Assembly: GCF_018599245.1 (NCBI RefSeq)
Contig: NZ_JAHEVJ010000005.1
Span: 186,001-250,000 of the forward strand
DNA: 64,000 nucleotides
Origin: Aliiroseovarius lamellibrachiae
Lineage (GTDB): Bacteria; Pseudomonadota; Alphaproteobacteria; Rhodobacterales; Rhodobacteraceae
Reading direction: 5' to 3'
This document shows positions 31,228-45,510 of the stretch, in pieces. Within the stretch, counting starts at the first letter, position 1. Each line of letters opens with the position of its first letter. The notes beneath the pieces were generated by a model. That model worked only from the letters and a program-made list of their open reading frames with translations, did not search any database and was not told the DNA's origin. A program made the translations under genes and the position numbers.

Positions 31228-31228
31228 C

Positions 31229-31266
31229 CTTTTCCTCTTTCCAAAAATATCCCCGCCGGAGGCAAG
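31229..31266. repeat. Dispersed intergenic motif, copy 1 (minus orientation)
   Basis: On the minus strand this reads GCCTCCGGCGGGGATATTTT then TGGAAAGAGG. Related sequence occurs at 56683-56714 and 61282-61320, always between genes. It lies between the convergent TSUP and asparaginase genes. Confidence 0.6.
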
Positions 31267-31276
31267 ACATTCTGTG

Positions 31277-32293
31277 TTACGCAGACCAAAGCGCTGCTGA
31301 CGGCCGAATTTCACCGGTGTCCAACCCTGCGAAATTCAGCACCCGTGGGTTCAGGCGCTTCTTGATCATCGGATCCGCGGCATCCGCCACGCCGAGCCGC
31401 GCAAGAATGGCCGCAATGGCACATTCAGATGCGCGGGTAGAGCCGTCGTTGATTTTCAGCGCCACGCCCAAACCTTGTTCGGGCAGGATTGCGATGAAAA
31501 ACGCTTCGGCCCCGGTTTTTACCGCCACACGGCCCGGCAGGGCGCGCATAATCTCGGTGCAGGCGCGGCCCTCTCCAGCGACCAATTCTGGGTGCAACAT
31601 CATCGCCTCGCGCAGCCGCACCATGGCGGTGTCGCGCGTCGACCGACCGGATTGCGCGCCCGCAAAGCTCGCCATCGCCCGTGCCATGCCGTGCAAGGAT
31701 GTCGCGTGGTTCGGGGCCGAACAGCCGTCGATGCCGTAACCCGGACTGTCCATGCCCGTGACCTCTTCGAACGCCAGTTTCGCCGCTTGTTGCACCGCAT
31801 GATCCGGGTTCACATAATCGGCCTGATCCGCGCCAAGATGCTGTGCCAAGGTCAAAAACCCTGCGTGTTTTCCAGAACAATTGTTGTGGATTTTGCAAGG
31901 GCTTTCGTCCGCACAAATCAGCGCCTTTTTCGCCGGGCGATCATCGGGCATTTGCGGACCACAGCACAGGTCATCATTGCCCAGCCCCAGATCCCCAAGC
32001 CAAGCGCGCACGCGGTCGGTGTGAATGGCGGCCCCTTGGTGGCTGGCGCAGGACAGTGCCAATTGCTCGGTGGTTAGGCCCGCCGCATCCGCGGCCCCGC
32101 TTTCCACCAAAGGCAGCGCTTGCAGCATCTTAGCCGAGGATCGTGGCAGGATCACCTCATCCGGGTTGCCCCAGCTTTCAACAATCTCACCTTGGGTATT
32201 GCACACCACGGCGTGCCCCAGATGTTGCGATTCCATGAAATCGCCACGCCATATTTCGACCAGCCGCTCCGCCGCATTCACATCTTGCACCAC
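31277..32293 (-). CDS. L-asparaginase II family protein (rhizobial type)
   Basis: 338 residues from GTG 32293, with GGGAGAG about five bases upstream. Family blocks: LPRSSAKMLQALP, LSCASHQGA, KIHNNCSGKHAGFLTL and YGIDGCSAPNHATSLHGMA, then AVKTGAEAFFIAILPEQGLG. These match the asparaginase_II class of Rhizobium etli, which differs from the bacterial type I/II enzymes and carries a zinc-linked cysteine. It should hydrolyse asparagine. No signal peptide is seen. Confidence 0.9.
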   Translation of the reverse strand: MVQDVNAAERLVEIWRGDFMESQHLGHAVVCNTQGEIVESWGNPDEVILPRSSAKMLQALPLVESGAADAAGLTTEQLALSCASHQGAAIHTDRVRAWLGDLGLGNDDLCCGPQMPDDRPAKKALICADESPCKIHNNCSGKHAGFLTLAQHLGADQADYVNPDHAVQQAAKLAFEEVTGMDSPGYGIDGCSAPNHATSLHGMARAMASFAGAQSGRSTRDTAMVRLREAMMLHPELVAGEGRACTEIMRALPGRVAVKTGAEAFFIAILPEQGLGVALKINDGSTRASECAIAAILARLGVADAADPMIKKRLNPRVLNFAGLDTGEIRPSAALWSA

Positions 32294-32511
32294 GATACTC
32301 TCCCTTTACTGCGACACCGCTTTGGGGTGCGCGCGATTTTCCGCCGCATAATCCAGTTCTGGGGCTTTCACAACACCCACATTTCACGTTAGACTAGGCG
32401 GCAAAGGAATAAAACGCTTCATGCGGCGCGATTTAATAAGAAGAAAACCGCTTTAGATGGTTGGGCTTCGCAGGGGCAAGAGGCAGAGACAGCTTGGAGG
32501 CTGTAACGGAC

Positions 32512-33042
32512 ATGAAACGAGTGATCACAGGGGCAATTTGTGGCGCGTTCTGCGCAATGGCCCTCAGCACATCTGGTGCTCTCGCACAGGAAAGCACCAA
32601 CCGGGTAGCGGCAAACACGGATTGGAGTGTTTTTGTCGAGGACAATCCCACCGAATGTTGGAGTGTTTCCAAACCCAAGGAAACCGTAAACACACGCGAT
32701 GGCCGGGCTGTGGCCGCGAAACGTGGTGATATCTTGCTGTTTGTCAGCTATCGCCCCGGATCCAAAGTCAAAGGTCAGGTGTCATTTACCGGTGGCTATC
32801 CTTTTGCCAAGGGATCTACCGTGTCTTTGACGGTTGGCAGCAACGCCTATCAGATGTTTACAGATGGCGAATGGGCCTGGGCGGCACCCGCGGATGACGC
32901 CAAGATTGTATCCGCGATGAAGCGTGGCGCATCCGCCATTCTTCGCGCGCAATCGTCGCGTGGCACCAAAACCAAAGACACATTTTCGCTGTTGGGCTTC
33001 ACGGCGGCTGTGGACGAGGCTGGCAAGCGCTGCGGCGGTTAA
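32512..33042 (+). CDS. Invasion-associated locus B (IalB) family protein
   Basis: 176 residues from ATG 32512. A signal peptide ends near GALAQES. The body has the IalB fold: DWSVFVEDNPTECWS, the RPGSKVKGQVSFTGG strand block and conserved cysteines (TECWSV, KRCGG at the end). Family members are periplasmic proteins required for host-cell entry in Bartonella; in free-living alphaproteobacteria the function is not known. It is monocistronic, divergent from the asparaginase gene. Confidence 0.9.
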   Translation: MKRVITGAICGAFCAMALSTSGALAQESTNRVAANTDWSVFVEDNPTECWSVSKPKETVNTRDGRAVAAKRGDILLFVSYRPGSKVKGQVSFTGGYPFAKGSTVSLTVGSNAYQMFTDGEWAWAAPADDAKIVSAMKRGASAILRAQSSRGTKTKDTFSLLGFTAAVDEAGKRCGG

Positions 33043-33212
33043 GCTGTTTCAATTCTCATACGTGCCGAACACCCAAAGAGCTGTTTCAACCATATTCGAC
33101 TGTCGCCCCCGGACCGCACTCGCGGGCGGGGTTGTGGCGCGTGGCCTGATGGGGTGACAAGCCCTGCCCCTTGGGCTATAGACTGCGACCCTGCGAACAA
33201 AGGACGCGCGCC

Positions 33213-34409
33213 ATGGAACCGACTGCCCCGATCACACAAGATGTGTTGACCCTGCCCCGCAAGGATGACCCATCCGCCAAGCCAAATCTGGTGGGTATGA
33301 CGCGCGATGCGATGCGCGCGGCACTGATTGACATGGGCACCAAGGAAAAACAGGCCAAGATGCGGGTGAACCAGATCTGGCAATGGATTTACCAATGGGG
33401 CAAGCGCGATTTTGACGCGATGACCAATCTGTCCAAGGATTATCGCGCCCAGCTGGCGGATCATTTTGTGATCGAAATCCCCGAGGTGGTCAGCAAGCTT
33501 GTGTCGGATGACGGCACCCGAAAATACCTTGTGCGCATCGCTGGCGGGCATGAGGTAGAGGTCGTGTATATCCCAGAGGACGGGCGCGGCACGCTGTGCA
33601 TTTCGTCCCAAGTTGGCTGTACTCTGACCTGCACTTTTTGTCATACAGGCACGCAGAAACTGGTGCGCAATCTGACCGCCGCTGAGATTATCGGTCAGGT
33701 GATGATGGCGCGTGATGATCTGAATGAGTGGCCCGAACCCGGCACCCGCACCGATCAAAACCAGCCGCGTCTGTTGTCGAACATCGTGCTGATGGGCATG
33801 GGCGAGCCGCTTTATAATTTTGAAAACGTGCGCGATGCGATGAAGATCGCGATGGACCCGGAAGGCATCCAACTGTCGCGCCGCCGCATCACGCTGTCGA
33901 CTTCTGGCGTGGTGCCGGAAATTGCCCGCACGGCGGATGAGATTGGCTGTCTTTTGGCGATTTCTTTCCACGCCACCACCGATGAGGTGCGCGACAAGCT
34001 GGTTCCGATCAACAAGCGCTGGAATATCGAAGAGCTGCTGGCCGCGCTGGCCGCCTATCCAAAGGTCTCAAACTCTGAACGGATCACTTTTGAATATGTG
34101 ATGCTGAACGGGGTGAATGACAGCGTTGAAGATGCGCACCGCCTGGTGGACCACATCAAACGCCATGAAATCGCTGCCAAAATCAACCTGATCCCGTTCA
34201 ACGAATGGCCGGGTGCGCCCTATAAACGGTCGTCAAACAACCGGATCCATGCCTTTGCGGACATCATCCATGAGGCCGGGTATGCCAGCCCCATTCGTCG
34301 CCCGCGTGGCGAAGATATCATGGCCGCCTGTGGTCAGCTGAAGTCCGCAACCGAGCGCGCGCGCAAGTCGCGCAAGCAAATCGAAGCCGAGGCGGGGATG
34401 GGGTCATAA
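33213..34409 (+). CDS. rlmN: 23S rRNA / tRNA adenine-C2 methyltransferase
   Basis: 398 residues from ATG 33213. The radical SAM cluster motif CTLTCTFC is at residues 136-143; other blocks are [37 protein letters not shown] and [17 protein letters not shown], whose Cys forms the covalent intermediate. RlmN methylates A2503 of 23S rRNA and A37 of some tRNAs. A further 14 codons upstream are open but unlike the family. Confidence 0.97.
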
Positions 34410-34523
34410 GGCGCCATTCCTTTTGGTTAACAATTCCCTAAAATTGCCACGATTGCGCACAATTTGTGCCACGTCCTCGCGCGATCCTGCCTTTGAGGTA
34501 AATGAAACTCAAAGGAGCCTATC

Positions 34524-34733
34524 GTGACCACCTGCGATCTTGACCATGTTGAAACCGAAAGCGTGCTGCGTTTCTTGTCGCGCGAGCGGAAAAAAGTACT
34601 GAGTTTGTTTGAGTTTAAACATCGGCTGCGGAACTACGGCTATTGCCTTAAACGCTCCGAAGGGGTGTTTTATGTGTTGACCCTGCCGCATCGCAAGCGG
34701 GTCTGTGCCCTGCCACGCGAGCTTTTGTCGTAA
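34524..34733 (+). CDS. Small hypothetical protein
   Basis: 69 residues from GTG 34524, with AAAGGAG seven bases upstream. It is basic, with two predicted helices (VLRFLSRERKKVLSLFEFKHR) and no membrane segment. A terminator directly after its stop supports a real gene. No family recognised. Confidence 0.65.
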   Translation: MTTCDLDHVETESVLRFLSRERKKVLSLFEFKHRLRNYGYCLKRSEGVFYVLTLPHRKRVCALPRELLS

Positions 34734-34735
34734 AA

Positions 34736-34761
34736 AAACCCCGGTCCATTGGCCGGGGTTT
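34736..34761. terminator. Terminator between small gene and LOG gene
   Basis: The stem AAACCCCGG (34736-34744) pairs with CCGGGGTTT (34753-34761) around an 8-base loop. An A run before and T-rich sequence after suggest it can act in both directions between the convergent genes. Confidence 0.75.
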
Positions 34762-34779
34762 CGCTTTTGTTACCCAACC

Positions 34780-35634
34780 TTACCGGCCCGGCAAATTCTC
34801 ACGCAGTTCATCTGCGCAATCCCAGCAATCAATCGCTTCTATCGCCTCTTCGGCGGTTTCAACAAACCGGAACAGGTCCAGATCTTCGGCGCTGATGGTG
34901 CCCGCATCCGACAGCGCGTCCCAATTGACAATCTTGCGCCAAAAGTCGCCGCCAAACAGCAGGATCGGTACTTTTTTCATCCGCCCGGTTTGCACCAAGG
35001 TCAGGGTTTCAAACAACTCGTCCAAGGTGCCAAAACCGCCGGGGAACACCGCGAGCGCCTCTGCGCGCATCAGGAAGTGCATCTTGCGGACGGCGAAATA
35101 GTGAAAGTTGAAACATAGGTCAGGCGTCACATATTCATTGGGCGCCTGTTCATGTGGCAACACGATGTTCAAGCCGATGGAAACGCCGCCCGCGTCCTGC
35201 GCGCCGCGGTTTCCCGCTTCCATCACGCCGGGGCCACCACCGGTAACCACCACATGTTCTGTGCCGCCAGTCGCCTTGGATCGTTCGGTCATCAGCCGGG
35301 CAAAATTGCGCGCTTCGTCATAGAATTTCGACAGATCCGACAAGGTTTTGGTCCGTGCGCTGTCTTTCTTGGCAGGCTCGGGAATACGCGCGCCACCAAA
35401 CAGAACCACGGTGCTTTGCACGCCATATTCGGTCATCATCAATTCGGGCTTCAAGAGCTCAAGCTGCAAGCGGACCGGGCGCAGGTCTTCTCGGCACATG
35501 AAATCCTGATCATCATACGCCAGCCTATAGGCGGGCGCGCGGGTTTGTGGCGTATCAGGCGTGTGGTGTGATGCTTCGCGGTCTTGGCGCGAACGGCGCA
35601 GGGGATGCCGAGGGGGGGGCGTTTGGTCGGTCAT
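34780..35634 (-). CDS. LOG/TIGR00730 family Rossmann-fold protein
   Basis: 284 residues from ATG 35634. A low-complexity, basic N-terminal extension of about 70 residues precedes the Rossmann domain with VVVTGGGPGVMEAGNRGA and the LOG motif PGGFGTLDELFE. Family members are cytokinin-nucleotide phosphoribohydrolases or AMP/IMP nucleosidases; some act as purine nucleotide hydrolases. It lies at the left edge of the metal island, which may begin after its start. Confidence 0.88.
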   Translation of the reverse strand: MTDQTPPPRHPLRRSRQDREASHHTPDTPQTRAPAYRLAYDDQDFMCREDLRPVRLQLELLKPELMMTEYGVQSTVVLFGGARIPEPAKKDSARTKTLSDLSKFYDEARNFARLMTERSKATGGTEHVVVTGGGPGVMEAGNRGAQDAGGVSIGLNIVLPHEQAPNEYVTPDLCFNFHYFAVRKMHFLMRAEALAVFPGGFGTLDELFETLTLVQTGRMKKVPILLFGGDFWRKIVNWDALSDAGTISAEDLDLFRFVETAEEAIEAIDCWDCADELRENLPGR

Positions 35635-35825
35635 GAATAAATCCTGTTCAATGCTCGTTTTCACCTATTGTTAGCGCTTGCGGCAGGGCGTGACCAGTCA
35701 CACCGCGTCACCTTTTGGTGCAAAGGCACGCAGTCCGACACGATCCCCTGGTGGCGCGCCTGTCAATTCGGATCACCCGCGGATCACGGTTGCCCCCTTC
35801 CCCGCGTCCGCGAGCGTGTTGAACA

Positions 35826-36233
35826 TTACCTCTTGCGCCGGATGGTGCCCGACAGTGTGGTCGCCCCGGCCAACGTGTTGTAGATGGTGCCGTATTTTTG
35901 CAAGTTGCGATGCAGCAGGTCGATCCGCTGATCGCTTTCGTCGGTGTCGACCACGATCTCATAGTCGATGCGCACCATCTTTGGCGGGCTGTCCTGTCTT
36001 TGCCCCTGCAGGCTGACCTCGATCCCGCGCAGATCGAAGCTCAACATCGGGATCAGGCGCTCGGTCCCCTTCAGAATACAGGCGGCAAGGCTTGCCAGTA
36101 ACATCTCGGCCGGATTAAAGGCATCCGGCCGCCCCGCCATATCCGTATCAAGAACGATTATGGCGTCTTTTGTCTGGGCTTGCGAACCATGACCGTCAAT
36201 GCGACGGGCAGTGACGTGATAGTCCAACATCAT
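35826..36233 (-). CDS. OsmC family protein with a single cysteine
   Basis: 135 residues from ATG 36233, which overlaps the MBL stop (ATGA). The OsmC/Ohr fold is clear: FNPAEMLLASLAACILKG around the first cysteine and the C-terminal KYGTIYNTLAGATTLSG block. In peroxide-reducing OsmC/Ohr the second cysteine lies in that C-terminal helix (often KCPVYNT); here it is replaced by KYGTIYNT, so a classical two-cysteine peroxidase cycle is not possible. It closes the seven-gene operon headed by an ArsR regulator. Confidence 0.88.
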   Translation of the reverse strand: MMLDYHVTARRIDGHGSQAQTKDAIIVLDTDMAGRPDAFNPAEMLLASLAACILKGTERLIPMLSFDLRGIEVSLQGQRQDSPPKMVRIDYEIVVDTDESDQRIDLLHRNLQKYGTIYNTLAGATTLSGTIRRKR

Positions 36234-37141
36234 TCCCACTCCATCTGCTGGTATGCGGTCTGTGCGTTGCGTCCGGCGAGACTGTCGAACTGTTCGAGAT
36301 AGGAAAATGCCGATTGATCGACGGCCGGGGCATCCATGATGTCGCCGCCTTCGTCCAACAGCGCCCCAATCTTCCCGCGCAGGTTCATCAGATAATCATA
36401 TGTGTCCGCACGGGCCTGATCCAATGTCGTGGCATGGCCGTGACCCGGCACCAGATGCGTCGCACCAGTGGCCTCCATCGCTTTGAAGGTCTCCGGCCAT
36501 TCGGCAATCGAACTCTGTTCGCCGACACCGAGAATGCGTTCGACATAGACAATGTCGCCTGTGAACACCGTGCCGCGTTGTGGCACCCAGACAAAGCTGT
36601 CGCCCGGCGTATGGGCGGCACCCGGATGCACAATTTCGAACGTCATCCCGCCGAGATCCAGCGTGTAGGTATCGTCAAAAGTGACGCTCGCATAGGCCGG
36701 TTCCGTCCCCTCCAGCTCCGCGCCCAGAAACTGCGCCAACCCCGTCATTTGGATCGATCCGCGGTTTTGGTGATCAGCAACAGCATCTTCAGAGGCGATC
36801 ACAACCGCCCCCTGCGCTTGCCAATAACCATTGCCGAGCCAGCGATGGTCCTGCCCGCCGGTATTGACCACATATTTAACGGGCTGGTCCGTCACGGTTC
36901 GAATGGCGGCATGAAGCGCCTCTGCCCCTTTCCAGGATCCACCCGGATCAACCAGAACCGCGCCATCCTCTGTCGCGATAAGCCCGAAGGTGGCGTTGTT
37001 CGCGAGGTTTTCCGGGCTGCGCTGCTGTTTTTCACCAACGATGGCCCAGACACCATCGGTCACGGGCTGGATTTCGAGGGCTTGCGCGGTCGCAAGACCG
37101 GGCAAAAGCAACGTTGCGGAAACGACGAGTGTACGGATCAT
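36230..37141 (-). CDS. MBL-fold hydrolase-like protein, divergent metal site
   Basis: 303 residues from ATG 37141, overlapping the upstream stop as ATGA. A signal peptide (IRTLVVSATLLLPGLATAQA) directs it to the periplasm. The MBL fold is present (LVDPGGSWKG, HPGAAHTPGDSF with His-x-x-x-x-Asp-like order, FTGDIVY, LVPGHGHATT), but the usual HxHxDH is changed to NTGGQDHRWLGN. It resembles the SoxH / quinoprotein-relay metallohydrolases. A second paralogue is at 60239-61186. It may bind one metal or act as a thiol/sulfur-related enzyme. Confidence 0.85.
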   Translation of the reverse strand: MIRTLVVSATLLLPGLATAQALEIQPVTDGVWAIVGEKQQRSPENLANNATFGLIATEDGAVLVDPGGSWKGAEALHAAIRTVTDQPVKYVVNTGGQDHRWLGNGYWQAQGAVVIASEDAVADHQNRGSIQMTGLAQFLGAELEGTEPAYASVTFDDTYTLDLGGMTFEIVHPGAAHTPGDSFVWVPQRGTVFTGDIVYVERILGVGEQSSIAEWPETFKAMEATGATHLVPGHGHATTLDQARADTYDYLMNLRGKIGALLDEGGDIMDAPAVDQSAFSYLEQFDSLAGRNAQTAYQQMEWE

Positions 37142-37374
37142 GTGGACAGCCATCCTTCGAGTTTTGCCGCATCTGGCAGACCGCCAGCATGGACGAGCTT
37201 TCCGTCAAGCGAAATTCCCGGCGTGGACATCACACCCGCCATCGCGATCTCGCGCGGGTCGCTCACCTTGGTCACATCGACCTCGACGCCCAGCTTGGCA
37301 GCCGCATCTTTGACCATGGTTTCAGTGGTTTCGCATCGTTTGCAGCCGGGGCCGTAGACTTTGATGGTTTTCAT
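37138..37374 (-). CDS. Small redox-active disulfide protein (thioredoxin fold), copy 2
   Basis: 78 residues from ATG 37374, with GGAGG six bases upstream. It has the CxxC motif CKRC near residue 11 and the cis-proline loop MSTPG near 49, as in the small redox-active disulfide protein 2 family. It lacks a signal peptide, so is cytosolic. It is about half identical by eye to the copy at 38143-38379, and the two flank the VIT-type transporter gene. A TTG upstream (37389) is out of SD spacing. Confidence 0.9.
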   Translation of the reverse strand: MKTIKVYGPGCKRCETTETMVKDAAAKLGVEVDVTKVSDPREIAMAGVMSTPGISLDGKLVHAGGLPDAAKLEGWLST

Positions 37375-37410
37375 ATTTTCCTCCTTCAAAGGTGGGTTTT
37401 GGGTTGAGTG

Positions 37411-38115
37411 TTACGAAATTGTGGTGCCAAACAGCGCGCCCACAAGGGCCGTCGCCGCCATTGCCGCAGCCCCCCAGAACGTGACCCGCATCACGGCGCG
37501 GGTGATGGGGGCACCCCCTGTCGAGGCCGACATACCGCCCAGAAGACCCAGAGCGATGACCGATGCGACCGTCGTGTTGATTGTAATCCAGGACTGCGGC
37601 GATAGGACCACTGCGGCCAGGGGCAACGCCGCGCCCACCGTAAAGGAGGCCGCTGACGAAAGCGCAGCCTGAATTGGCCGGGGCTTTGACGCCATTGTAA
37701 TGCCCAGTTCGTCGCGGGCATGGGTGGCCAGCGCGTCCTTGGCCATCATCTGCTCGGCGACCTGTCGGGCAAGGTCGGGATCAAGCCCGCGCTGGACATA
37801 GATATCCGCGAGTTCCTGACGCTCGAATTCCGGCTGCGTGCGAAGTTCCTGTGCTTCACGCGCCAAATCGGCTTTTTCACTGTCGGCCTGTGAACTGACC
37901 GAGACATATTCCCCGGCGGCCATCGACATGGCCCCCGCGACCAACCCGGCGGTGCCGGCCAAAAGAACATCGCTGACCGGAACGCCGGCGCTGGCGACCC
38001 CGGCAATAAGGCTGGCGGTCGAGACAATCCCGTCATTCGCCCCCAGCACCGACGCGCGCAGCCATCCGGCGCGGTTGAAGTAGTGGTTTTCCTGTGAAGC
38101 GGCGGTTTCGGTCAT
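37411..38115 (-). CDS. VIT1/CCC1-type transporter
   Basis: 234 residues from ATG 38115, with AAGGA eight bases upstream (ATGs at 38121 and 38124 are possible). The family signature is near the N-terminus: RAGWLRASVLGANDGIVSTA and GAMSMAAGEYVSV in span 2, followed by a cytosolic helix (about 80-145) and three more spans. VIT/CCC1 proteins move Fe2+ or Mn2+ across membranes. The link to an ArsR regulator and two thioredoxin-like proteins suggests metal stress. Confidence 0.92.
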   Translation of the reverse strand: MTETAASQENHYFNRAGWLRASVLGANDGIVSTASLIAGVASAGVPVSDVLLAGTAGLVAGAMSMAAGEYVSVSSQADSEKADLAREAQELRTQPEFERQELADIYVQRGLDPDLARQVAEQMMAKDALATHARDELGITMASKPRPIQAALSSAASFTVGAALPLAAVVLSPQSWITINTTVASVIALGLLGGMSASTGGAPITRAVMRVTFWGAAAMAATALVGALFGTTIS

Positions 38116-38142
38116 ATTCATCATCCTTCTTGAGTGTCCGCC

Positions 38143-38379
38143 TCAGGCGGCGCTTAGCCACGCCTCGATCTGCGCCCGGTCCGGCACCGAACCGACATGA
38201 ACCAGTTTGCCGTCAATCAGCACTCCCGGTGTTGACATGATCCCGTGGCTCACGATCACGGCCATGTCCTCTACCTTGGTTACGGTAACGTCCACGCCAA
38301 GCTGGCTGGCGATGGACGTGATTTGCGCGGCAGTGGTTTTGCACTTGGCACAGCCCGCCCCGAGAACCTTGATCTCCAT
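38143..38379 (-). CDS. Small redox-active disulfide protein (thioredoxin fold), copy 1
   Basis: 78 residues. CAKC near residue 10 and MSTPG near 48 mark the same family as the copy at 37138-37374. The family is commonly found beside DUF318 permeases and ArsR regulators and is thought to give or receive electrons or a metal. It is 10 bases after the permease stop, in one transcript. Confidence 0.9.
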   Translation of the reverse strand: MEIKVLGAGCAKCKTTAAQITSIASQLGVDVTVTKVEDMAVIVSHGIMSTPGVLIDGKLVHVGSVPDRAQIEAWLSAA

Positions 38380-38389
38380 CTCATAGCCC

Positions 38390-39451
38390 TTAGAAAATCA
38401 GGTTGAAGAGAAAGCCGACCGCAAGAATGCCGCTGGCAACCACGCCGACAAACACCGCGATCAGGCGCAGGGTCAGCACTTGGCGCAGGATGATCATTTC
38501 GGGCAAGGACAGCGCGATCACGCTCATCATGAAGGCCAGCACGGTGCCAAGGGCCGCGCCCTTGCCCAACAGCGCCTCGACGATCGGGATGACGCCAGCG
38601 GCGTTGGTGTACATCGGCACGCCCATGACCACCGCAGCAGGAACCGACCACCAAGCTTCGGCGCCCATGATCCGCACCATCAGATCCTCAGGCACATAGC
38701 CGTGGATCAGCGCACCCATGCCAATGCCAAGGATGATCCAGATCCAGACCTTGCCGAAAATCTCGCGCACGGCCTCGATGCCCAGCGCGTAGCGGTTGAT
38801 CATGGTGAGGGGCTCATCCTCTCCCACCACGGGGGTATTTGCGCCCGAATGGATATCGCGCACCCAGTCTTGAAGCCAGCCTTCCAACCGGAGTTTGCCG
38901 ATAACAAAGCCAGCCACGATGGCGATGCCAAGCCCGAAGGCAAGATAGGTGACCGCCACCTGCCAGCCGACCAGACCAAAGAGCAGCACCAGCGCCACCT
39001 CATTCACCATCGGGGCCGCAATCAGGAAAGAAAAGGTCACGCCAAGCGGCACGCCTGCCGATACAAAACCGATGAACAAAGGCACCGCCGAGCACGAACA
39101 AAACGGCGTCAGGATACCAAGGCCCGCCGACATGACATTGCCAACGCCTTCGCGCTTACCCGACAACAGCGCGCGGGTTTTTTCGGGCGAGAACCAGGTG
39201 CGCACAACGCCCATGGCAAAGACGATGAGCGTGAGAAGCATCATCACCTTGGGCACGTCATAGAAGAAAAATGCGATGGCCTCGCCGGTGTGGCTGTGGC
39301 GGTCAATTGGGAACAGCGCCGTCACCCATTCCGAAAACGGGATCAACTGTTGATAGACCAGCCACCAGACAACGAGAAAGGCGACAACACCCAAATGCCA
39401 CTGCCAGTCTGGCCGCGCGGGGAGAACGGGATGGGAGGTTTCGGCGCTCAT
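38390..39451 (-). CDS. DUF318-type permease with a CSC motif
   Basis: 353 residues from ATG 39451, which overlaps the ArsR stop as ATGA. About eight membrane spans are visible. The block LTPFCSCSAVPLFIGF (Cys118, Cys120) is shared with ArsP-type permeases of organoarsenicals and the wider YraQ/DUF318 family. A second half repeats the fold (PMYTNAAGVIPIVEAL). Metalloid or thiol transport is likely, but the substrate is not established. Confidence 0.9.
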   Translation of the reverse strand: MSAETSHPVLPARPDWQWHLGVVAFLVVWWLVYQQLIPFSEWVTALFPIDRHSHTGEAIAFFFYDVPKVMMLLTLIVFAMGVVRTWFSPEKTRALLSGKREGVGNVMSAGLGILTPFCSCSAVPLFIGFVSAGVPLGVTFSFLIAAPMVNEVALVLLFGLVGWQVAVTYLAFGLGIAIVAGFVIGKLRLEGWLQDWVRDIHSGANTPVVGEDEPLTMINRYALGIEAVREIFGKVWIWIILGIGMGALIHGYVPEDLMVRIMGAEAWWSVPAAVVMGVPMYTNAAGVIPIVEALLGKGAALGTVLAFMMSVIALSLPEMIILRQVLTLRLIAVFVGVVASGILAVGFLFNLIF

Positions 39452-39738
39452 GCGGCAGCCCTTTCCTTGGTTTGCGCGGCGGCCAGAACCGCGTCCACCA
39501 CATCTGTGATTTCGCCAGGCATGTCAGGGTTCAGACGATACCGGACCCACTGCGCATCACGCCGGTCGATGACCAGACCGGCCTGTTTCAAAGCCTGCAT
39601 ATGCCGCGACATCCGGCTTTGGCTTGCATCAAGTTTCTTCATCAATTCGCACACGCAGTGCTCTGACCCATCGGCCAAAAGCAGGACTGCCTGAAGGCGG
39701 GTCGGTTCGGCCAAGGCGGACAGGATGGCGAGAATCAT
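39448..39738 (-). CDS. ArsR/SmtB family regulator with Cys-x-Cys
   Basis: 96 residues from ATG 39738, chosen because AAAGGAA lies eight bases upstream. An ATG at 39756 would add six residues but lies at the end of the operator-like dyad. The winged-helix DNA-binding domain has LSALAEPTRLQAVLLL and SQSRMSRHMQALKQAGLV; the metal-sensing loop HCVCEL (Cys28, Cys30) matches the arsenite-sensing ELCVCDL helix of ArsR. It should repress this operon until a metal or metalloid binds. Confidence 0.92.
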   Translation of the reverse strand: MILAILSALAEPTRLQAVLLLADGSEHCVCELMKKLDASQSRMSRHMQALKQAGLVIDRRDAQWVRYRLNPDMPGEITDVVDAVLAAAQTKERAAA

Positions 39739-39754
39739 GGCAGCTTTTCCTTTC

Positions 39755-39802
39755 ATGCGTATATGCGCATACACACATAAGCGCATTTTTATCCCCTTGC
39801 AA
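39755..39802 (-). promoter_or_regulatory. ArsR promoter/operator dyads
   Basis: The palindrome TATGCGCATA (39762-39771) lies within the dyad ATGCG (39755-39759) / CGCAT (39766-39770), and the half-site ATAAGCGCAT repeats at 39777-39786. On the minus strand TTGCAA (39802-39797) and TATGTG (39779-39774) are a candidate -35/-10 with a 17-base spacer. The dyad overlaps the -10 end and the leader, as expected for a repressor. Confidence 0.55.
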
Positions 39803-39932
39803 TACCGTTCGACTCCGCTGGCCTGCGTCATGGTGTCATCGGGGCTTCACGAGACACCCTAACGCCTTAAGTTCGGGAAAGTTGGATTTTGATTGGCGCC
39901 TCGCATGCGTTCGACACGCTGATGCCGGGACC

Positions 39933-40115
39933 GACTTGCCCTCTTACCGCTTGCGCGTCGTTGGGCTGATGTTGTCGCTTTGCACGTCACGAAGGGAGGC
40001 GCGCAACATGCCGGCTGAACGCGGGGGTGCCGTCGACACCTCCACCGTTCATCGCTGGGTTCACAAAATCGGCCCTGAGACCCGCAAGCGGCCCATCATT
40101 CGGACATCATTGTAA
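39933..40115 (+). pseudogene. IS6-family transposase remnant
   Basis: A short open stretch ends with AERGGAVDTSTVHRWVHKIG then PETRKR, which matches the conserved IS6 (IS26-like) N-terminal block (AERGVxVDxSTVxRWV). The upstream part (LMLSLCTSRREARNMP) is out of register and no DDE domain follows. Thus only a piece of an old transposase is left, with no inverted repeats located. It marks past mobile-element activity inside the island. Confidence 0.6.
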
Positions 40116-40401
40116 GCTGGAACACCTCCACCGAACCAACGCGCCGTCGCGATGCTCGCTGTTTCGCAGCGCTGAATTTCGCATAGGATGTCTCCAACCG
40201 TATTAACGCGTCAGTTCGCTCGTCGATCAGGCGACGGATGCGCGAGCGTTCAGAGCCGATTGCCCCACCATAGGGCATCCGGTTGGCAGGAAATATGGTG
40301 CGCATATTTTCCCGCGCCGATTGCAGAGCGGCATCTGCTTGCAAAAACCGGCGATACGTTAGGGCAAGAAGCCGATAATAAGCCAATATTTCGTCATTCA
40401 T
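40096..40401 (-). CDS. Hypothetical helical protein in the island
   Basis: 101 residues from ATG 40401, with AGGAAGAAG upstream. It is predicted to be nearly all helical and basic (YYRLLALTYRRFLQ, RRLIDERTDALIRLETSYAK). No family recognised. Its 3' end overlaps the IS6 remnant by about 20 bases, so the C-terminus may have been altered by the insertion. It could be regulated with the dnaJ/cbpM genes, 53 bases away. Confidence 0.5.
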   Translation of the reverse strand: MNDEILAYYRLLALTYRRFLQADAALQSARENMRTIFPANRMPYGGAIGSERSRIRRLIDERTDALIRLETSYAKFSAAKQRASRRRVGSVEVFQLTMMSE

Positions 40402-40454
40402 TTTCTTCTTCCTCCGGCGCAAATTAAATGTTTATGCGCAGCCACCGATGCGCG

Positions 40455-40802
40455 TCAGTCTGTTTCGGAACCGGTGTCGTCCCACAGTTGAGGGCGACGG
40501 CGTGCGGTCCGTTGAAACGCCTCGGGGTTGTCGGCCACAACCTCAGCTAGGGCGCGCAGGTCCCGTCTTGTTCGGTGAAGCTGATCCATCAGGTTCAGGA
40601 TGATCGCCATGGCGTCCGGGGACACGGCCATGTCGTTTCGCAAATCGCGCACCAACCTGACGCGCGCAACATCCATCGCGTCAAACATGGGCGCCCCGTC
40701 CCGGTTTACGGGCCGCACCCACCCCAATTGCATCCATTGGCGAAGTTCTCGCCGTGTCACACGTCGTACCTGTGTCAGTACCATTTTTTCCGTCAGGGTC
40801 AT
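40455..40802 (-). CDS. cbpM: CbpM-like chaperone modulator
   Basis: 115 residues from ATG 40802, overlapping the DnaJ-like stop as ATGA. It has the MerR-like fold of CbpM, which binds the J-domain of CbpA: TRRELRQWMQLGWVRP, VARVRLVRDLRNDMAVSPDA, a central helix and a charged tail. The pair with the DnaJ-like gene supports this. It would modulate the partner co-chaperone. Confidence 0.85.
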   Translation of the reverse strand: MTLTEKMVLTQVRRVTRRELRQWMQLGWVRPVNRDGAPMFDAMDVARVRLVRDLRNDMAVSPDAMAIILNLMDQLHRTRRDLRALAEVVADNPEAFQRTARRRPQLWDDTGSETD

Positions 40803-41740
40803 GTCATCCTCCGCAAATCCGCGCGTGGGTCCTCGTGGACCTCGTCCCGCCAACGCCGGGCCAGATCTTTCATCCCGTCATCCACATCTTTGGGCAGAAC
40901 AATTTCAAGTTCGACGATCTGGTCGCCCGGCGTTCCACCCTTGCCCTTAAGTCCCTTCCCTCGCAGCCGGAGTTTACGTCCGGAAGACGACCCAGCCGGG
41001 ATCGAGACCGAAGCAAGCCCCGATATCGTCGGGACATCGACTTTACCGCCCAAGACGGCCTCGTCAAAGGTGATCGGGACGTGCACATGGATGTCAACGC
41101 CCTCGCGCTGGAACACTGGATGCGGCCGCACGGTAATGGACACCAGCGCGTCGCCGGGGCCACCTTTGCCAATCCCGTCAGCCCCCTTGCCGCGCAAGCG
41201 TAATGTCTGGCCATCGCGGGTGCCCGGCGGGATCGAAATCTCCAACCGCTGACCGTTTGGCATGGTCACACTTTTTTTCACCCCGCGCGCGGCATCAAGA
41301 AAGTCGACCTCTAGATGATACCGCAGATCCTGTCCGCGCGCATGGACATCCGCGCCGAAGCCCGCATCGCGACCTGCGCGTTGGTTAAAGAACTGGCTGA
41401 AGATGTCCGACAGATCCTCGTCCGCGGCGCCGGCACCAAACCCGGGGCCGGTATCATAGCGGCCGCCGGCGTCCTGCCCTGCGTATTGGTGATAATACTG
41501 CCGATCGGGTCGTTCCTGGCCGCTCGCGTCTATTTCACCGGCGTCAAAACGGCGCCGTTTCTCGGGATCTCCGAGAATATCATAAGCGGACGCGACGTCC
41601 TTGAACCGCTCGTGCTTGGCATCATCGTCTGGGTGAAGATCCGGATGAAGGTCTTTTGCGAGCTTGCGATAGGCCTTTTTGATCTCAGGTTGTGAGGCGC
41701 TGTGGGAGACGCCCAGTATTTCATAGGGATCGTTGTTCAT
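40799..41740 (-). CDS. CbpA-like J-domain co-chaperone
   Basis: 313 residues from ATG 41740, with AAGGTGAC upstream. The J domain (residues 4-70) has the HPD motif at 32-34 (LHPDLHPDD). A glycine-rich linker (about 85-135) and a DnaJ C-terminal domain (PGTRDGQTLRLRGKG twice in form) follow. There are no zinc-finger cysteines, so it is type II (CbpA-like) and should act with DnaK. It is next to cbpM and a truncated hsp20 gene. Confidence 0.92.
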   Translation of the reverse strand: MNNDPYEILGVSHSASQPEIKKAYRKLAKDLHPDLHPDDDAKHERFKDVASAYDILGDPEKRRRFDAGEIDASGQERPDRQYYHQYAGQDAGGRYDTGPGFGAGAADEDLSDIFSQFFNQRAGRDAGFGADVHARGQDLRYHLEVDFLDAARGVKKSVTMPNGQRLEISIPPGTRDGQTLRLRGKGADGIGKGGPGDALVSITVRPHPVFQREGVDIHVHVPITFDEAVLGGKVDVPTISGLASVSIPAGSSSGRKLRLRGKGLKGKGGTPGDQIVELEIVLPKDVDDGMKDLARRWRDEVHEDPRADLRRMT

Positions 41741-41774
41741 GGCGTCACCTTGATCGTTTCTGAATGGTTTTCGG

Positions 41775-42008
41775 TCATGCTGCTGCGTCCCCCCGCGCGA
41801 CATTGCCCTGGCCTAAACTGTCACTGTTGGTGGGGGCGACATCTGGCAACTCTGCTGTGATTTCGACGGCCTCATCGGGCTGCCAAACGGTGACGGCGGG
41901 GAACGCGCGTGGCACCCCGAGCGCGGACTTGGCAGGTTTTGGGATGTGCAGCATCGAACGCGTGAAAGCGAACGGGTCGCTGCGCCGTATGAAATCTGGA
42001 TAGAACAT
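41775..42008 (-). pseudogene. hsp20, 3'-truncated
   Basis: A 77-codon frame from ATG 42008. It starts like a small heat-shock protein (SDPFAFTRSMLH) and continues into the start of the alpha-crystallin domain (FPAVTVWQPDEAVEITAELP), then ends with an unrelated tail (NSDSLGQGNVARGDAAA). About half of the domain is missing. The truncated gene is beside dnaJ and cbpM, so a complete three-gene stress locus was probably once present. Confidence 0.75.
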
Positions 42009-42388
42009 GTGTCGCTTCCTCGCTTCCTCGCGTCCAAACAATCGCGCAACTCTCGTTACGCCAGTTCGAAACGCCCACGAAGGACAGTCACAGATAAAGG
42101 CCCACCGCCAAAGCGGTGGTTGGTAATCTTCGCAACGCCACACCGTTCCCTTGAAAGCGAACGCGCGGCGGTCCGCTGTTTCAGCCGAACCTTTTCTGCG
42201 TCTCCGTGAAACCCCAATTGGGCGTTTCTGATACTGATAAAATCATGCCAATCGGTAACATCAAGGGTCGAGGTGGAAAATCTTTTGGTATGCTGCCAGG
42301 GCATAAGGCGTGGCGCTGTCACTGATCGATGGTTTTTGCATCATGGTCGACCAGGCCATTATCTGGATCCGCGCGCTCGTTCTTGGGG
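42009..42388. other. Spacer without a supported gene
   Basis: This 380-base stretch holds only short frames without family features. It lies between the hsp20 fragment and merR (both minus strand) and probably joins two island modules. The near-palindrome CCACCGCCAAAGCGGTGG at 42101-42118 could be a terminator stem for merR. Confidence 0.4.
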
Positions 42389-42817
42389 CTATGTGGCGAC
42401 ACCCACCTCAAACAGCGTGTCGAGAATTGGACAGTCCGGAACATCGCCGCGACCGCATTCTGCCGCCATCGTTTCCAGCGCGTGTTCCAGCCGGTGCAGG
42501 GCCAATATCTTCTCTTTGACGGACGCGAGGTGTTCGGTCGTCATGCTGTGGACCTCGCCGCAGGTGAAGTCGCTGCGATCAACCATTGTCAGCAAAGCGC
42601 GGATTTCCTCGATGCTAAAGCCAAGCTCGCGCGAGCGCTTGATGAACGACAGGCGTTTGAGCTGGTCGTGATTATACTGCCGATTGCCGCCTGCTGTTCT
42701 GTCCGGTTTTGGCATAATCTCGATCCGCTCATAGTAGCGGATCGTCTCAATGTTCACGCCGGTGCTCTTGGACATCTCACCAATTGCGTAGCCTCGCGTT
42801 TTCGTGAAGTCGGACAT
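42389..42817 (-). CDS. merR: Mercury-responsive MerR regulator
   Basis: 142 residues from ATG 42817. An N-terminal winged helix (YAIGEMSKSTGVNIETIRYYER) is followed by the dimerisation helix. Cysteines at 86, 121 and 129 match the three Hg-binding cysteines of Tn501 MerR (82, 117, 126) in spacing (35 and 8, against 35 and 9). It faces merT across a 19-bp-spaced promoter, so it should repress and, with Hg(II), activate the operon. Confidence 0.93.
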   Translation of the reverse strand: MSDFTKTRGYAIGEMSKSTGVNIETIRYYERIEIMPKPDRTAGGNRQYNHDQLKRLSFIKRSRELGFSIEEIRALLTMVDRSDFTCGEVHSMTTEHLASVKEKILALHRLEHALETMAAECGRGDVPDCPILDTLFEVGVAT

Positions 42818-42829
42818 CGATAAAACCTC

Positions 42830-42868
42830 TTGCATCTGTAGCCGCTACAGATCGCATGTTACAGCAAG
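42830..42868 (+). promoter_or_regulatory. merT promoter with MerR operator
   Basis: A -35 TTGCAT (42830-42835) and a -10 CATGTT (42855-42860) are separated by 19 bases, the overlong spacer typical of MerR-controlled promoters. The dyad ATCTGTAG (42834-42841) / CTACAGAT (42845-42852) lies within the spacer. The predicted start of transcription near 42868 excludes the ATG at 42856, so merT starts at 42892. Confidence 0.75.
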
Positions 42869-42891
42869 AAACTCAAACTGCGAGCGTTTAC

Positions 42892-43296
42892 ATGTCCGAC
42901 TCAATAAATGTTGAAGTGAACCAGACCGACCCCGACAGCCGCAAAGCGCGGATGATCGCAGCCGGTGGCATCCTCGGCGCCCTTGCGGCATCGACCTGTT
43001 GTATCGTCCCGCTGATCCTGTTCAGCCTTGGTGTTTCCGGCGCCTGGATCGGAAACCTGACGGCCCTAGAGCCCTATAAGCCGATTTTTATCGCGATAAC
43101 GCTGGGCTTTCTCGGTTACGGCTATTGGATGGTCTACCGCAAACCCAAGGCCTGCGCACAGGGTGAAGCCTGTGCGCGACCGCTTCCCAACCGGCTTGTC
43201 AAATCCGCGCTTTGGGTCGCAACAGTGCTTATCATGATCGCGCTGTTCTGGACCTGGATCGCCCCGGTTGTCGCCCCCATTCTTCTTGGTCTTTGA
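42892..43296 (+). CDS. merT: Mercuric transport protein MerT
   Basis: 134 residues from ATG 42892. Three membrane spans are visible, with the vicinal Cys36-Cys37 pair in the first (LAASTCCIVPLILFSLG) and a second pair, Cys88 and Cys94, in the cytosolic loop (ACAQGEACA). Spacing and sequence match MerT of Tn501/Tn21. MerT passes Hg(II) from MerP to MerA. A frame from 42856 is longer but starts upstream of the predicted transcription start. Confidence 0.94.
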   Translation: MSDSINVEVNQTDPDSRKARMIAAGGILGALAASTCCIVPLILFSLGVSGAWIGNLTALEPYKPIFIAITLGFLGYGYWMVYRKPKACAQGEACARPLPNRLVKSALWVATVLIMIALFWTWIAPVVAPILLGL

Positions 43297-43307
43297 AAGG
43301 ACACACA

Positions 43308-43604
43308 ATGAAACTCAAAACTTCCGCTTTGGCCCTGATTGGCCTGATGGCTGCCGGACAGGCATTTGCCGCTGAACAGACTGTCACATTTTCGGTTCCT
43401 GGTATGACCTGCGCCAGCTGCCCTTTTATCGTTGAAAAGGCGATGAGTGGTGTTGATGGTGTCATGCAGGTGGTGGCAGATGCGGACACCAAGACAGCGG
43501 TCGTTGTCTTTGATGATGCCATTGCAAACGTGGATGGCATTGCGCTTGCGTCAATGGCGGCAGGATATGAAGCTGCGCTTGTGCCTGACGCCGACAATTC
43601 CTGA
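43308..43604 (+). CDS. merP: Periplasmic mercury-binding protein MerP
   Basis: 98 residues from ATG 43308. A signal peptide (MKLKTSALALIGLMAAGQAF) is followed by a ferredoxin-like HMA domain with GMTCASCPFIV (Cys35, Cys38) and the VPGM block. It binds Hg(II) in the periplasm and passes it to MerT. It is 11 bases after merT and 6 bases before the next small gene. Confidence 0.94.
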   Translation: MKLKTSALALIGLMAAGQAFAAEQTVTFSVPGMTCASCPFIVEKAMSGVDGVMQVVADADTKTAVVVFDDAIANVDGIALASMAAGYEAALVPDADNS

Positions 43605-43610
43605 GCCGCG

Positions 43611-43874
43611 ATGAAAGAGAGTGCAACAGGTGGTCTTCTGGCCTTCATCATCGCCGCCCCTGTCGTCGTGATCTGTTGTGGTGGAAAAGCTGTGCTGTTT
43701 GGAACCGTGCTGTTTGGAACGGCTGGTTTTCTGACAGGTGCCAAAATGCTGACGATTGCCCTTGTCGCAACACTTGGCGGCATCGCTGTTCTTGCCACGC
43801 GATCATTCATACGGGCACGCAAAGCCAACCAAGTATTGAAAAGGAACGACCAAAGTGAACGACAGACTTCTTAA
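43611..43874 (+). CDS. Unnamed mer-operon membrane protein with vicinal cysteines
   Basis: 87 residues. Two hydrophobic segments are seen (about 9-32 and 42-63). The first holds a vicinal pair, Cys22-Cys23 (VVVICCGG), in the same relative position as in MerT, MerF, MerE and MerC. The C-terminus is basic. It is not MerF, MerE, MerC or MerT by sequence, and overlaps merF by 20 bases, so the two are likely translated together. It is a candidate additional Hg transporter. Family not recognised. Confidence 0.8.
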   Translation: MKESATGGLLAFIIAAPVVVICCGGKAVLFGTVLFGTAGFLTGAKMLTIALVATLGGIAVLATRSFIRARKANQVLKRNDQSERQTS

Positions 43875-44058
43875 GATGGGCATCATCGGCACGGTCATTG
43901 CCGCGCTGTGTTGCTTCACACCGGTTCTCGTGGTGCTTTTTGGCGTCGTTGGCCTGTCGGCTGTCGTCGGCTACCTCGACTATGTTTTATTGCCCGCCCT
44001 TGCTGTGTTCGCACTGATCACAATCTACGCTCTGATCCGCCGCGCGCGGAGAACCTGA
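43855..44058 (+). CDS. merF: Mercury transporter MerF
   Basis: 67 residues from GTG 43855, with AAAAGG upstream (about 11 bases). It has two membrane spans and the block AALCCFTPVLVVLFGVVGLS, with Cys19-Cys20, then GYLDYVLLPALAVFAL, which is close to MerF. Canonical MerF has a second CC pair at the C-terminus; here it ends RRARRT, so that pair is missing. The start overlaps the preceding gene by 20 bases. Confidence 0.92.
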   Translation: MNDRLLKMGIIGTVIAALCCFTPVLVVLFGVVGLSAVVGYLDYVLLPALAVFALITIYALIRRARRT

Positions 44059-44076
44059 ATTGAAAGATAAAACATC

Positions 44077-45510
44077 ATGTCCAACTGCTGCACGCCCCAC
44101 TCGACTGACGCCGATACATTCGACCTTGCCGTAATCGGCGCGGGTTCTGCCGGATTTTCCGCCGCGATCACCGCCGCCGAAGATGGTGCGCGGGTTGCCC
44201 TTATTGGGTACGGAACCATTGGCGGCACCTGCGTCAATGTCGGCTGCGTCCCATCCAAGGCAATGATCCGCGCTGTTGAAACCTTGCATTCAGCAAAGGG
44301 CGCGGCGCGTTTTGAGGGTGTGGAAGCCACCGCGCAGGTGACGGATTGGCCCGCGATGGTGGCCCAGAAACAAGCGCTCGTGGATGAGCTGCGTGCCGCA
44401 AAGTACATTGATGTTTTGCCAAACTATGAGGGTGTCACCTATATCGAGGGTCAAGCACGCTTTACAGCGGACGGGGCACTTATGGTTGGGGACCGCACCA
44501 TTCGCGCGCCAAAGGTGATTGTCGCCACGGGGTCGTCACCGCATATTCCCGATATTCCCGGGCTGGACGATGTCGATTGGCTGGACAGCACCTCGGCGCT
44601 TGAATTGCCGCAGCTCCCGAAATCGCTGGTGGTGATGGGCGGTGGTTATATCGGGGTTGAAATCGCCCAGATATTCGCGCGGGCGGGTGCCCAAGTGACC
44701 ATCGTCACGCGCCGCGGATTGCTGCCGGAGGCGGAACCGGAAGTCAGCGACGCCCTGACGAAAGCCTTTTCCGATGAGGGCATCAAGGTGATGGACGGGC
44801 TGTCCTATGATCGGTTTGAAACATCCGGCGATGGCGTTGTCCTTCATGCAACACATAACGGTGCGACCGTCAGGATCGAAGCTGAAAAGCTTTTGCTGGC
44901 GACGGGCCGCGTTCCGAACACGGGCTCTCTGGCGCTTGATGTTGCAGGTATCGACACGAATGCGCGCGGCGGGATTATTGTCGACCCACAGATGCGAAGC
45001 TCGCGGGATGGCGTTTACGCCACTGGCGATGTGACTGGAACCGATCAGTTCGTCTATATGGCGGCATATGGCGCGAAGCTCGCCGCCAAGAATGCGATGA
45101 ATGGAAATGCGCTGAGCTATGACAATAGCGTCATGCCTGCGGTGGTCTTTTCTGATCCACAGGTTGCAAGCGTCGGCTTGACCGAGGCACAGGCCAGGTC
45201 AGCGGGTCATGATGTGGCCACCTCTGTCTTGGGTCTCGAACATGTTCCCCGCGCGTTGGCGGCACGCGACACACGCGGCGTGATCAAGCTTGTTGCGGAT
45301 AAGAACAGCAAGAAGCTGTTGGGCGCGCATATCATCGCCCCGGAAGGCGCGGACAGCATCCAGACGGCTGCCATGGCCCTGAAGATGGGGATGACCTACG
45401 ATGATTTGGGCGCGATGATCTTTCCCTATCTCACGACCGTTGAAGGGCTCAAATTGGCTGCACAGACCTTTGAAAAGGATGTTGCAAAGCTGTCTTGTTG
45501 TGCGGGGTGA
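44077..45510 (+). CDS. merA: Mercuric reductase
   Basis: 477 residues. It has the FAD motif AVIGAGSAGFSAA, the redox disulfide GGTCVNVGCVPSK (Cys52, Cys57), the NAD motif VVMGGGYIGVEIAQ, the ATGDVTG block and the C-terminal Cys474-Cys475 pair (SCCAG). There is no N-terminal NmerA (HMA) domain, only an N-terminal CC in MSNCCTP. It reduces Hg(II) to volatile Hg(0) with NADPH. It is the last gene of the operon, followed by a G/C hairpin. Confidence 0.96.
   Translation: MSNCCTPHSTDADTFDLAVIGAGSAGFSAAITAAEDGARVALIGYGTIGGTCVNVGCVPSKAMIRAVETLHSAKGAARFEGVEATAQVTDWPAMVAQKQALVDELRAAKYIDVLPNYEGVTYIEGQARFTADGALMVGDRTIRAPKVIVATGSSPHIPDIPGLDDVDWLDSTSALELPQLPKSLVVMGGGYIGVEIAQIFARAGAQVTIVTRRGLLPEAEPEVSDALTKAFSDEGIKVMDGLSYDRFETSGDGVVLHATHNGATVRIEAEKLLLATGRVPNTGSLALDVAGIDTNARGGIIVDPQMRSSRDGVYATGDVTGTDQFVYMAAYGAKLAAKNAMNGNALSYDNSVMPAVVFSDPQVASVGLTEAQARSAGHDVATSVLGLEHVPRALAARDTRGVIKLVADKNSKKLLGAHIIAPEGADSIQTAAMALKMGMTYDDLGAMIFPYLTTVEGLKLAAQTFEKDVAKLSCCAG

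Follow-up and report, generated by a model that had tools for sequence, protein, structure and literature searches.

Within the permeases of the ArsP family, cluster 1 and cluster 2 are told apart by the motif that precedes a CSC triplet, LAV in the former and TPF in the latter, and the meaning of this difference is described as yet to be investigated (excerpted text of Yang et al. 2015, PMC4435449). The ArsP of C. jejuni is a methylarsenite exporter (excerpt of PMC6205960). Other systems with points of resemblance include ArsEFG (Chen, Zhang and Rosen 2019; mentioned in an excerpt of PMC9144182), arsenic islands that contain aioBA (excerpt of PMC3834237) and the selenocysteine-assisted organometal (SAO) system (excerpt of PMC13188914). 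Here we describe a group of seven genes in a 64,000-nucleotide stretch of Aliiroseovarius lamellibrachiae DNA (contig NZ_JAHEVJ010000005.1; the whole stretch is called the window below). The genes encode an ArsR regulator, an ArsP-family permease, two thioredoxin-like proteins (Trx1 and Trx2), a VIT transporter, a protein of the metallo-beta-lactamase (MBL) fold and an OsmC protein with a single cysteine. We think it probable that they form one arsenic-defence operon, put together from two recurring kinds of cassette and brought in on an island of metal(loid) resistance.

The locus shares with the ars operons of ArsP cluster 2 the TPF motif, the membrane C(S/T)C and an ArsR in front, but has other partners: two thioredoxin-like proteins, VIT, MBL and OsmC. 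The resemblance to ArsEFG lies in a family label, both thioredoxin-like proteins belonging to TIGR00412, the MTH895/ArsE family. A unit on plasmid pRCB133 of Rhodobacter capsulatus SB1003 has an ArsR, a permease 78% identical to that of the window, a Trx1-type protein and the same operator; in contrast to the window, a rhodanese replaces VIT, Trx2, MBL and OsmC, and the unit is flanked by ACR3 on one side and ArsJ/GAPDH on the other. Several cassettes adjoin aio genes, as in the islands with aioBA, but the terms OsmC, permease and thioredoxin are absent from the text of PMC3834237, and the A. lamellibrachiae genome has no close AioA (best partial matches 27-29%).

Gene layout, regulator and permease

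A preliminary description of this DNA had reported seven minus-strand genes joined by ATGA overlaps or separated by fewer than 40 bases, with the motifs HCVC (ArsR), CSCS (permease) and CxxC (both thioredoxin-like proteins) and a single cysteine in OsmC. The coordinates (Table 1) and all these residues were found as described, and both CxxC proteins flanking VIT score above the TIGR00412 cut-off. From arsR downwards the genes are spaced by -4, 10, 18, 36, -4 and -1 bases when OsmC starts at its second ATG (36230), the true gaps being 10-36 bases; if OsmC starts instead at its first ATG (36233), it too overlaps MBL by ATGA. Because the spacing is so tight, we infer that the seven genes are read as one transcript. 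A consensus scan of the operon strand returned neither a sigma-70-like promoter before arsR nor a terminator just after OsmC.

Table 1. Coordinates of the operon and of other features in the window; scores are in bits, followed by the cut-off of the model
Feature	Position	Strand	Score or remark
ArsR/SmtB metalloregulator, HCVCELM	39448-39738	-	NF033788 (HTH_metalloreg) 88, cut-off 55
ArsP_1 permease, cluster 2 type (TPF-CSC)	38390-39451	-	PF03773 233.5, cut-off 32.3
Trx1, MTH895/ArsE-family thioredoxin-like protein, CAKC	38143-38379	-	TIGR00412 92.5, cut-off 62
VIT1/CCC1-family transporter	37411-38124	-	PF01988 (VIT1) 229.4, cut-off 28.1
Trx2, second MTH895/ArsE-family protein, CKRC	37138-37374	-	TIGR00412 77.9, cut-off 62
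SoxH-like MBL-fold protein	36230-37141	-	PF00753 (Lactamase_B) 65.5, cut-off 22.7
One-cysteine OsmC protein	35826-36233	-	PF02566 51.1, cut-off 27.5
Putative palindromic operator ATGCG-N6-CGCAT	39755-39770		exact match, 16 bases before arsR start codon
11.4-kb island with operon, DnaJ/CbpM-like pair, mer operon and membrane protein	35725-47091		missing at the same site in two congeners
mer operon: merR, merT, merP, merF, merA	42389-45510	merR -, others +	MerA 548, cut-off 454; MerF 104, cut-off 50

The palindrome upstream of arsR recurs exactly in 30 of 50 cassettes and with at most one mismatch in 35 of them (shuffled sequences, 0.3%). This count leaves aside 3 of 53 cassettes, which are fragments or have short upstream stretches, and some of the chosen arsR starts probably lie too far upstream, hiding further copies; the start in the window was set by hand to 39738. 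As a rare word the putative operator had to be rejected: with one mismatch, 6 copies occur in the window for 6.6 expected. Its weight thus comes from its position in the relatives, since the pattern alone is not rare. The regulators themselves are uniform: the CxC pair, which we take to be the arsenic-type sensor site of ArsR, is present in 51 of 53 cassettes, the remaining two being fragments, and the third cysteine of C-V-C-x-x-C, presumably the E. coli type, is found in none of the 53 and is also lacking in the window. The NCBIfam models CmtR and BigR place the window ArsR far below their cut-offs.

A second motif, an FNR-type box (TTGAY-N4-RTCAA), lies upstream of many cassettes, exactly in 22 of 50 and with at most one mismatch in 30 (1.1% of shuffles with one mismatch). 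It precedes arsR in L054, L060, L070, L077, L086, L090, L115, L130 and others (L and G codes denote loci and genomes of the comparison), frequently 7 bases ahead of the ArsR operator, and suggests low-oxygen control in these relatives. Upstream of the window arsR no such box is found (3 mismatches), for which reason oxygen control is not claimed for this operon.

In the window permease, the membrane C(S/T)C corresponds to C118-S-C120. TPFC[ST]C was found in 53 of 54 permease homologues and the cluster 1 signature LAVC in none, and on these motifs we class the permease as an ArsP cluster 2 protein. Its identity to relatives reaches 88% in cassette loci and 91% in genome G215. In a sample of 341 genomes of the order, this permease is present in 55 and OsmC in 17, so that most genomes with the permease lack this OsmC beside it. 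A structure model built from 35 sequences has a mean pLDDT of 61, too poor for placing the CSC or conserved polar residues. In one genome (G032, L228, 6975-7884), a relative of the permease gene is split into three pieces beside its arsR.

Among NCBIfam models the permease matches SaoE best (120 bits, cut-off 325), and the SO_0444 Cu/Zn efflux model gives 89 bits for a cut-off of 300. The former match raises the question of whether the operon is a cysteine-only cousin of the SAO system, serving the efflux of organometals or organomercurials. SAO combines a related permease with a thioredoxin-like protein, SaoT, in a metal(loid) setting, and a link to Hg and As is described for selenoproteins of this kind (excerpt of PMC13188914). 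The window OsmC matches a model of OsmC-related (seleno)proteins weakly (21.6 bits, cut-off 95), and mer genes lie nearby. Cysteine, however, stands here in place of selenocysteine; the permease falls short of the SaoE cut-off, a score by which we would exclude it from SAO; no other SAO model occurs among the matches listed for eight proteins (for MBL, the best 25 of 44 families); and no MerB-like lyase was seen among the island proteins scanned, no further search for one having been made. We regard this reading as very improbable.

Arsenic genes around the relatives and the two kinds of cassette

A contig scan with an OsmC alignment yielded at least 497 confirmed relatives, and the best 80 define the loci analysed, which are weighted towards Alphaproteobacteria and not independent of one another. 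Using a panel of reference proteins as markers, ArsP was found in 40 of the 80 loci, and 39 have an ars or aio marker. Of the 59 loci that span at least 15 kb, 30 have an ars or arsenite-oxidase marker no more than 10 kb away, against 0 of 40 controls (Fisher 3e-9), the controls being 20-kb regions at round coordinates in related genomes other than those of the test loci. Markers become scarcer with distance: among 51 loci with full flanks, 21 have one within 5 kb and 6 at 5-10 kb. Neighbours were also clustered without preset names and read after setting aside antisense shadow ORFs. The arsenic types obtained are ArsP (32 loci), ACR3 (19), ArsC-type (16), ArsR (15), ArsH (10), a family that we read as glutaredoxin-type ArsC (9) and AioA (7), and the same clustering gave CDF (15), MBL (11), Trx (10) and VIT (8). 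The commonest Pfam family among 76 neighbour ORFs that had no label is ArsC, with 5; these ORFs are 75 out of 423 candidates, hand-picked from the nearest 140 and mostly on the plus strand, and a flavoprotein from L094. The idea that sulfur families would be the commonest neighbours was therefore not borne out.

Arsenite oxidase genes accompany OsmC in several configurations. OsmC lies inside an aio operon in L124, and aio genes share the OsmC locus in L057, L064, L087, L090, L091, L099, L105, L112 and L131. Across the 341 genomes of the order, AioA occurs in 20, and 7 genomes have both OsmC and AioA for 1.0 expected (p 1e-5 ignoring kinship); in G197 the two are 71 bases apart. OsmC is within 2.2 kb of the permease in 12 of the 17 OsmC genomes, our own genome included. 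An ArsR-ACR3-OsmC-VIT order was read in G075. On two contigs labelled as Acidobacteria-type, possibly mis-binned or transferred, the order is ACR3-ArsC-OsmC (L096, L100).

Annotated plasmids provide individual examples. Twelve regions around OsmC or MBL matches were opened, and ars or aio genes are annotated in four. On a Pseudosulfitobacter plasmid, ArsR-permease-Trx-MBL-OsmC-CDF is followed by TauE, Glp, nitroreductase and an arsenite oxidase that the record labels arsenate reductase (azurin); on the NT-25 plasmid, OsmC sits between genes read as aio regulators and pst genes; in Comamonas, an ars operon precedes permease-Trx-rhodanese-OsmC-CDF; and in Neotabrizicola, ArsR-permease-Trx-OsmC-CDF lies between ArsJ and ArsH/ACR3. 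Both of two further regions, opened on account of the permease, contain ars genes: the pRCB133 unit described above, and a Cereibacter region with ArsR-permease-Trx near ArsJ/GAPDH.

The composition of these loci suggests how the window operon arose. Trx1 matches the MTH895 structure 1ilo (E 5e-10), and among the 80 OsmC loci a Trx1-like protein is present in 7 and a Trx2-like protein in 34. A rhodanese, searched with one query from Comamonas, is found in 6 of the 7 Trx1-type loci versus 0 of the 34 Trx2-type loci. Some Trx1-type loci end in CDF-VIT (L068, L084), Trx2-type loci often carry MBL, and one locus, L064, has Trx1, rhodanese and MBL together. As the window joins Trx1 and VIT to Trx2 and MBL, we infer a fusion of two recurring kinds of cassette. 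The best identities to the window vary by gene (OsmC up to 86%, VIT up to 81%, MBL up to 75%). Among the loci read, the complete seven-gene order was found in one other genome, G033, with a truncated first thioredoxin gene and with CDF and aioA downstream. The preliminary description had made conservation of the genes together the test of its operon: a core of ArsR-ArsP-Trx-OsmC does recur in other genomes, with MBL, VIT, CDF and rhodanese as optional members, while the exact set of seven is a rare composite. Because the core, with or without MBL, recurs in this way, the arrangement is not due to chance; the co-occurrence of permease, ArsR and small disulfide proteins that is mentioned there also holds in other genomes.

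In one locus, L094 (8501-11509), OsmC lies with a flavoprotein, a Trx1-like protein and a VIT that shares 81% identity with that of the window; the locus has no ars marker of the panel. The first NCBIfam match of the flavoprotein, taken as a stop-free stretch, is type III sulfide:quinone reductase (48 bits, cut-off 525).

Rhodanese and this flavoprotein bear on an alternative in which the operon handles arsenic-sulfur species or persulfides (thioarsenates, sulfide-derived sulfane sulfur) in arsenic-rich settings. Besides the rhodanese of Trx1-type loci, which the R. capsulatus and Comamonas units both carry, and the sulfide:quinone reductase-like protein beside Trx1, OsmC and VIT in L094, it would agree with TauE/SafE or SulP neighbours in the Pseudosulfitobacter and Comamonas regions and with an MBL protein nearest to SoxH-related models. 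The window operon, however, contains no rhodanese, ArsC rather than a sulfur family leads the unlabelled neighbours, and nothing points directly to a thioarsenical, which makes this alternative unlikely. A more specific proposal draws on the same rhodanese or sulfide:quinone reductase-like enzymes of some relatives. The permease, the two ArsE-like proteins and the one-cysteine OsmC would form a thiol relay that takes apart or exports thioarsenicals, and the exported SoxH-like protein with its altered metal site would be the periplasmic arm. A 2018 review states that thioarsenical resistance mechanisms should exist and are not verified (excerpt of PMC6205960); if true, the proposal would give the first gene set assigned to thioarsenical resistance, but we hold it to be rather improbable.

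Possible roles of the products

Aligned to the plant VIT1 structure 6iu3, the window VIT has four identical glutamates in one stretch of the metal-binding domain. We take these four to bind metal in 6iu3, and since they are kept, the window protein probably moves a divalent metal and not a metalloid. Elsewhere in the same genome (contig 12, ~82163-82579; L002, L003), a 333-aa frame has two partial VIT1 matches and might, at a guess, be a ferritin-VIT fusion. The conserved glutamates are the first argument for an operon devoted to divalent or soft metals (Fe, Zn, Co, Cu, Hg), in which permease and VIT would export and ArsR would sense. In relatives, the cassette or OsmC is accompanied by CDF, P-type ATPase or DmeF genes; in the window, the island holds a mer operon as well; and the permease bears a distant likeness to SO_0444. 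Against this, the neighbourhood counts favour arsenic, the ArsR has a CxC pair presumably of the arsenic type, and the SO_0444, CmtR and BigR models all stay far below cut-off; we consider a metal operon distinctly improbable.

The MBL protein has GGQDHRW in place of HxHxDH and thus lacks the motif of hydrolytic metallo-beta-lactamases. Q97, H99, H177, D196 and H234 are invariant in 18 of 18 sequences, including a paralogue in the same window. The nearest models are SoxH-related, all below cut-off (SoxH_rel_PQQ_2, TIGR04559: 162 bits, cut-off 280), and the protein likely carries a signal peptide. Its structure model (pLDDT 89.6) has 8d2z as the best Foldseek match in the PDB, at TM 0.78-0.80 and 25% identity; this comparison gives the MBL fold and no function. 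The paralogue (60239-61222) is SoxH-related as well, ~38% identical, with NGQGH in the motif, and similar matches exist in the congeners searched except G011.

OsmC/Ohr peroxidases presumably use two catalytic cysteines. The window protein has the OsmC domain but not this pair: Cys52 and N119-T120 are invariant in 12 of 12 aligned relatives, and none of the 12 has a cysteine at the second place. A literature search, largely of openly accessible papers, returned no account of OsmC as an arsenic-operon gene. OsmC, VIT and SoxH-like MBL are families not usually listed as arsenic genes, with OsmC recurring in the arsenic clusters of other bacteria.

The preliminary description proposed that a metal, metalloid or sulfur species is detoxified by way of thiols. 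This fits the observations, and the evidence narrows its broad choice of substrates towards arsenic. For an arsenic-defence operon, we propose the following scheme. Judged by motif and family, ArsR would sit on the palindrome before arsR and come off once its CxC pair has bound a trivalent arsenical. The cluster 2 permease would export a thiol-reactive arsenical through the invariant CSC, and the two MTH895/ArsE-like proteins would either reduce the arsenical or reload the thiols of the permease or of OsmC. More tentatively, OsmC, with a cysteine that has no partner, might be a thiol carrier or a scavenger of arsenic-thiol adducts or peroxides; VIT might clear a divalent metal, probably iron or manganese, from the cytosol under arsenic stress and so ease a side effect on these metals; and the exported MBL-fold protein might act in the periplasm, where arsenite oxidase is located in relatives.

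Several observations weigh against an arsenic role. The nearest resistance genes to the operon are mer genes, and no ACR3, ArsC, ArsH or aio gene adjoins it. SaoE and the SO_0444 Cu/Zn proteins are ArsP-family permeases as well. In 18 of the 80 OsmC loci, ars markers and ArsP are both missing, and frequent neighbours of OsmC also include ABC ATPases (11 loci; these occur in 9 of the 40 controls too) and, in 8 loci, a short-chain-dehydrogenase-like protein. A single genus (g150) supplies four of the seven genomes with OsmC and AioA, and G197 is the only one in which the same contig carries the two. Eight of the 12 opened plasmid regions show no ars or aio gene in view. Such genes are out of view for the five-gene cassette of Hoeflea, which is followed by a metal P-type ATPase; for ArsR-permease-Trx-OsmC in Paracoccus and Loktanella; for OsmC-VIT of Agrobacterium and Shinella, beside the Co/Ni exporter DmeF; for the Sulfuricella OsmC, beside RND efflux and CcdA; for Pannonibacter, where MBL stands alone; and for SC52. 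Likewise, the ArsP-Trx units of G030, G027, G036 and G023, which hold near relatives of the permease, have no ars marker in the stretches read. The loss of ACR3 cannot be tied to the gain of the operon, because the sister genome G008 (87% complete) also lacks ACR3. Finally, an ordinary osmC was down-regulated in one arsenate transcriptome (excerpt of PMC4852401).

If the operon does serve arsenic defence, it supplies ArsP cluster 2 with partners, with an operator and with a host in which to test it, and the one-cysteine OsmC family, the SoxH-like MBL and VIT become candidate additions to the genes of arsenic islands. The genome would exemplify arsenic defence without an ACR3 or ArsB match. The unit with the same core on pRCB133 makes the question open to bench work, R. 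capsulatus SB1003 being a widely used laboratory strain.

Arsenic genes elsewhere in the genome, and the island

In this genome, a search that covered the classical ars pumps ACR3 and ArsB gave no match to either, so that trivalent arsenic may be handled mainly by the operon described here. Another arsenic locus exists on contig 20 (L264, 8270-11339), with an ArsR-ArsC fusion, an ArsJ-associated GAPDH and ArsJ. ACR3 is matched in 18 of 20 congeners, 17 of them above cut-off, the two without a match being G008 and G016.

The operon lies on an 11.4-kb island that two congeners lack at this site. In G008 the island flanks, ~88% identical, are 71 bases apart, and in G001 they are separated by 820 bases. 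The OsmC protein has no match in any of the 20 congeners searched. What comes closest to the MBL protein in them is a paralogue of 38-42% identity, which G011 (56% complete) lacks. Nothing was found that would account for the insertion: a search of each end by itself, and of the two 300-base ends against each other, gave at best a shared 10-base word and no inverted one; the window contains no tRNA; and no integrase was recognised on reading the island ORFs, no model search having been aimed at integrases. Base composition (30000-46000) does not set the island apart, and a plasmid search with the whole island gave 0 of 39 matching records that cover 80% of it.

Beside the operon, the island has a mer operon, absent from the preliminary description of the seven genes, in which the MerR, MerT and MerP models are the best matches of their genes, though below cut-off. 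As the match to MerA begins at residue 15, the protein lacks an N-terminal MerP-like domain. An unassigned gene (43611-43874) lies between merP and merF. The island membrane protein has no NCBIfam match and looks like an APC-type permease. Between the operon and the mer genes (40455-41803), and missing at the G008 site, are a DnaJ-like protein and a partner with a MerR domain, which we read from their sequences as a CbpA/CbpM pair.

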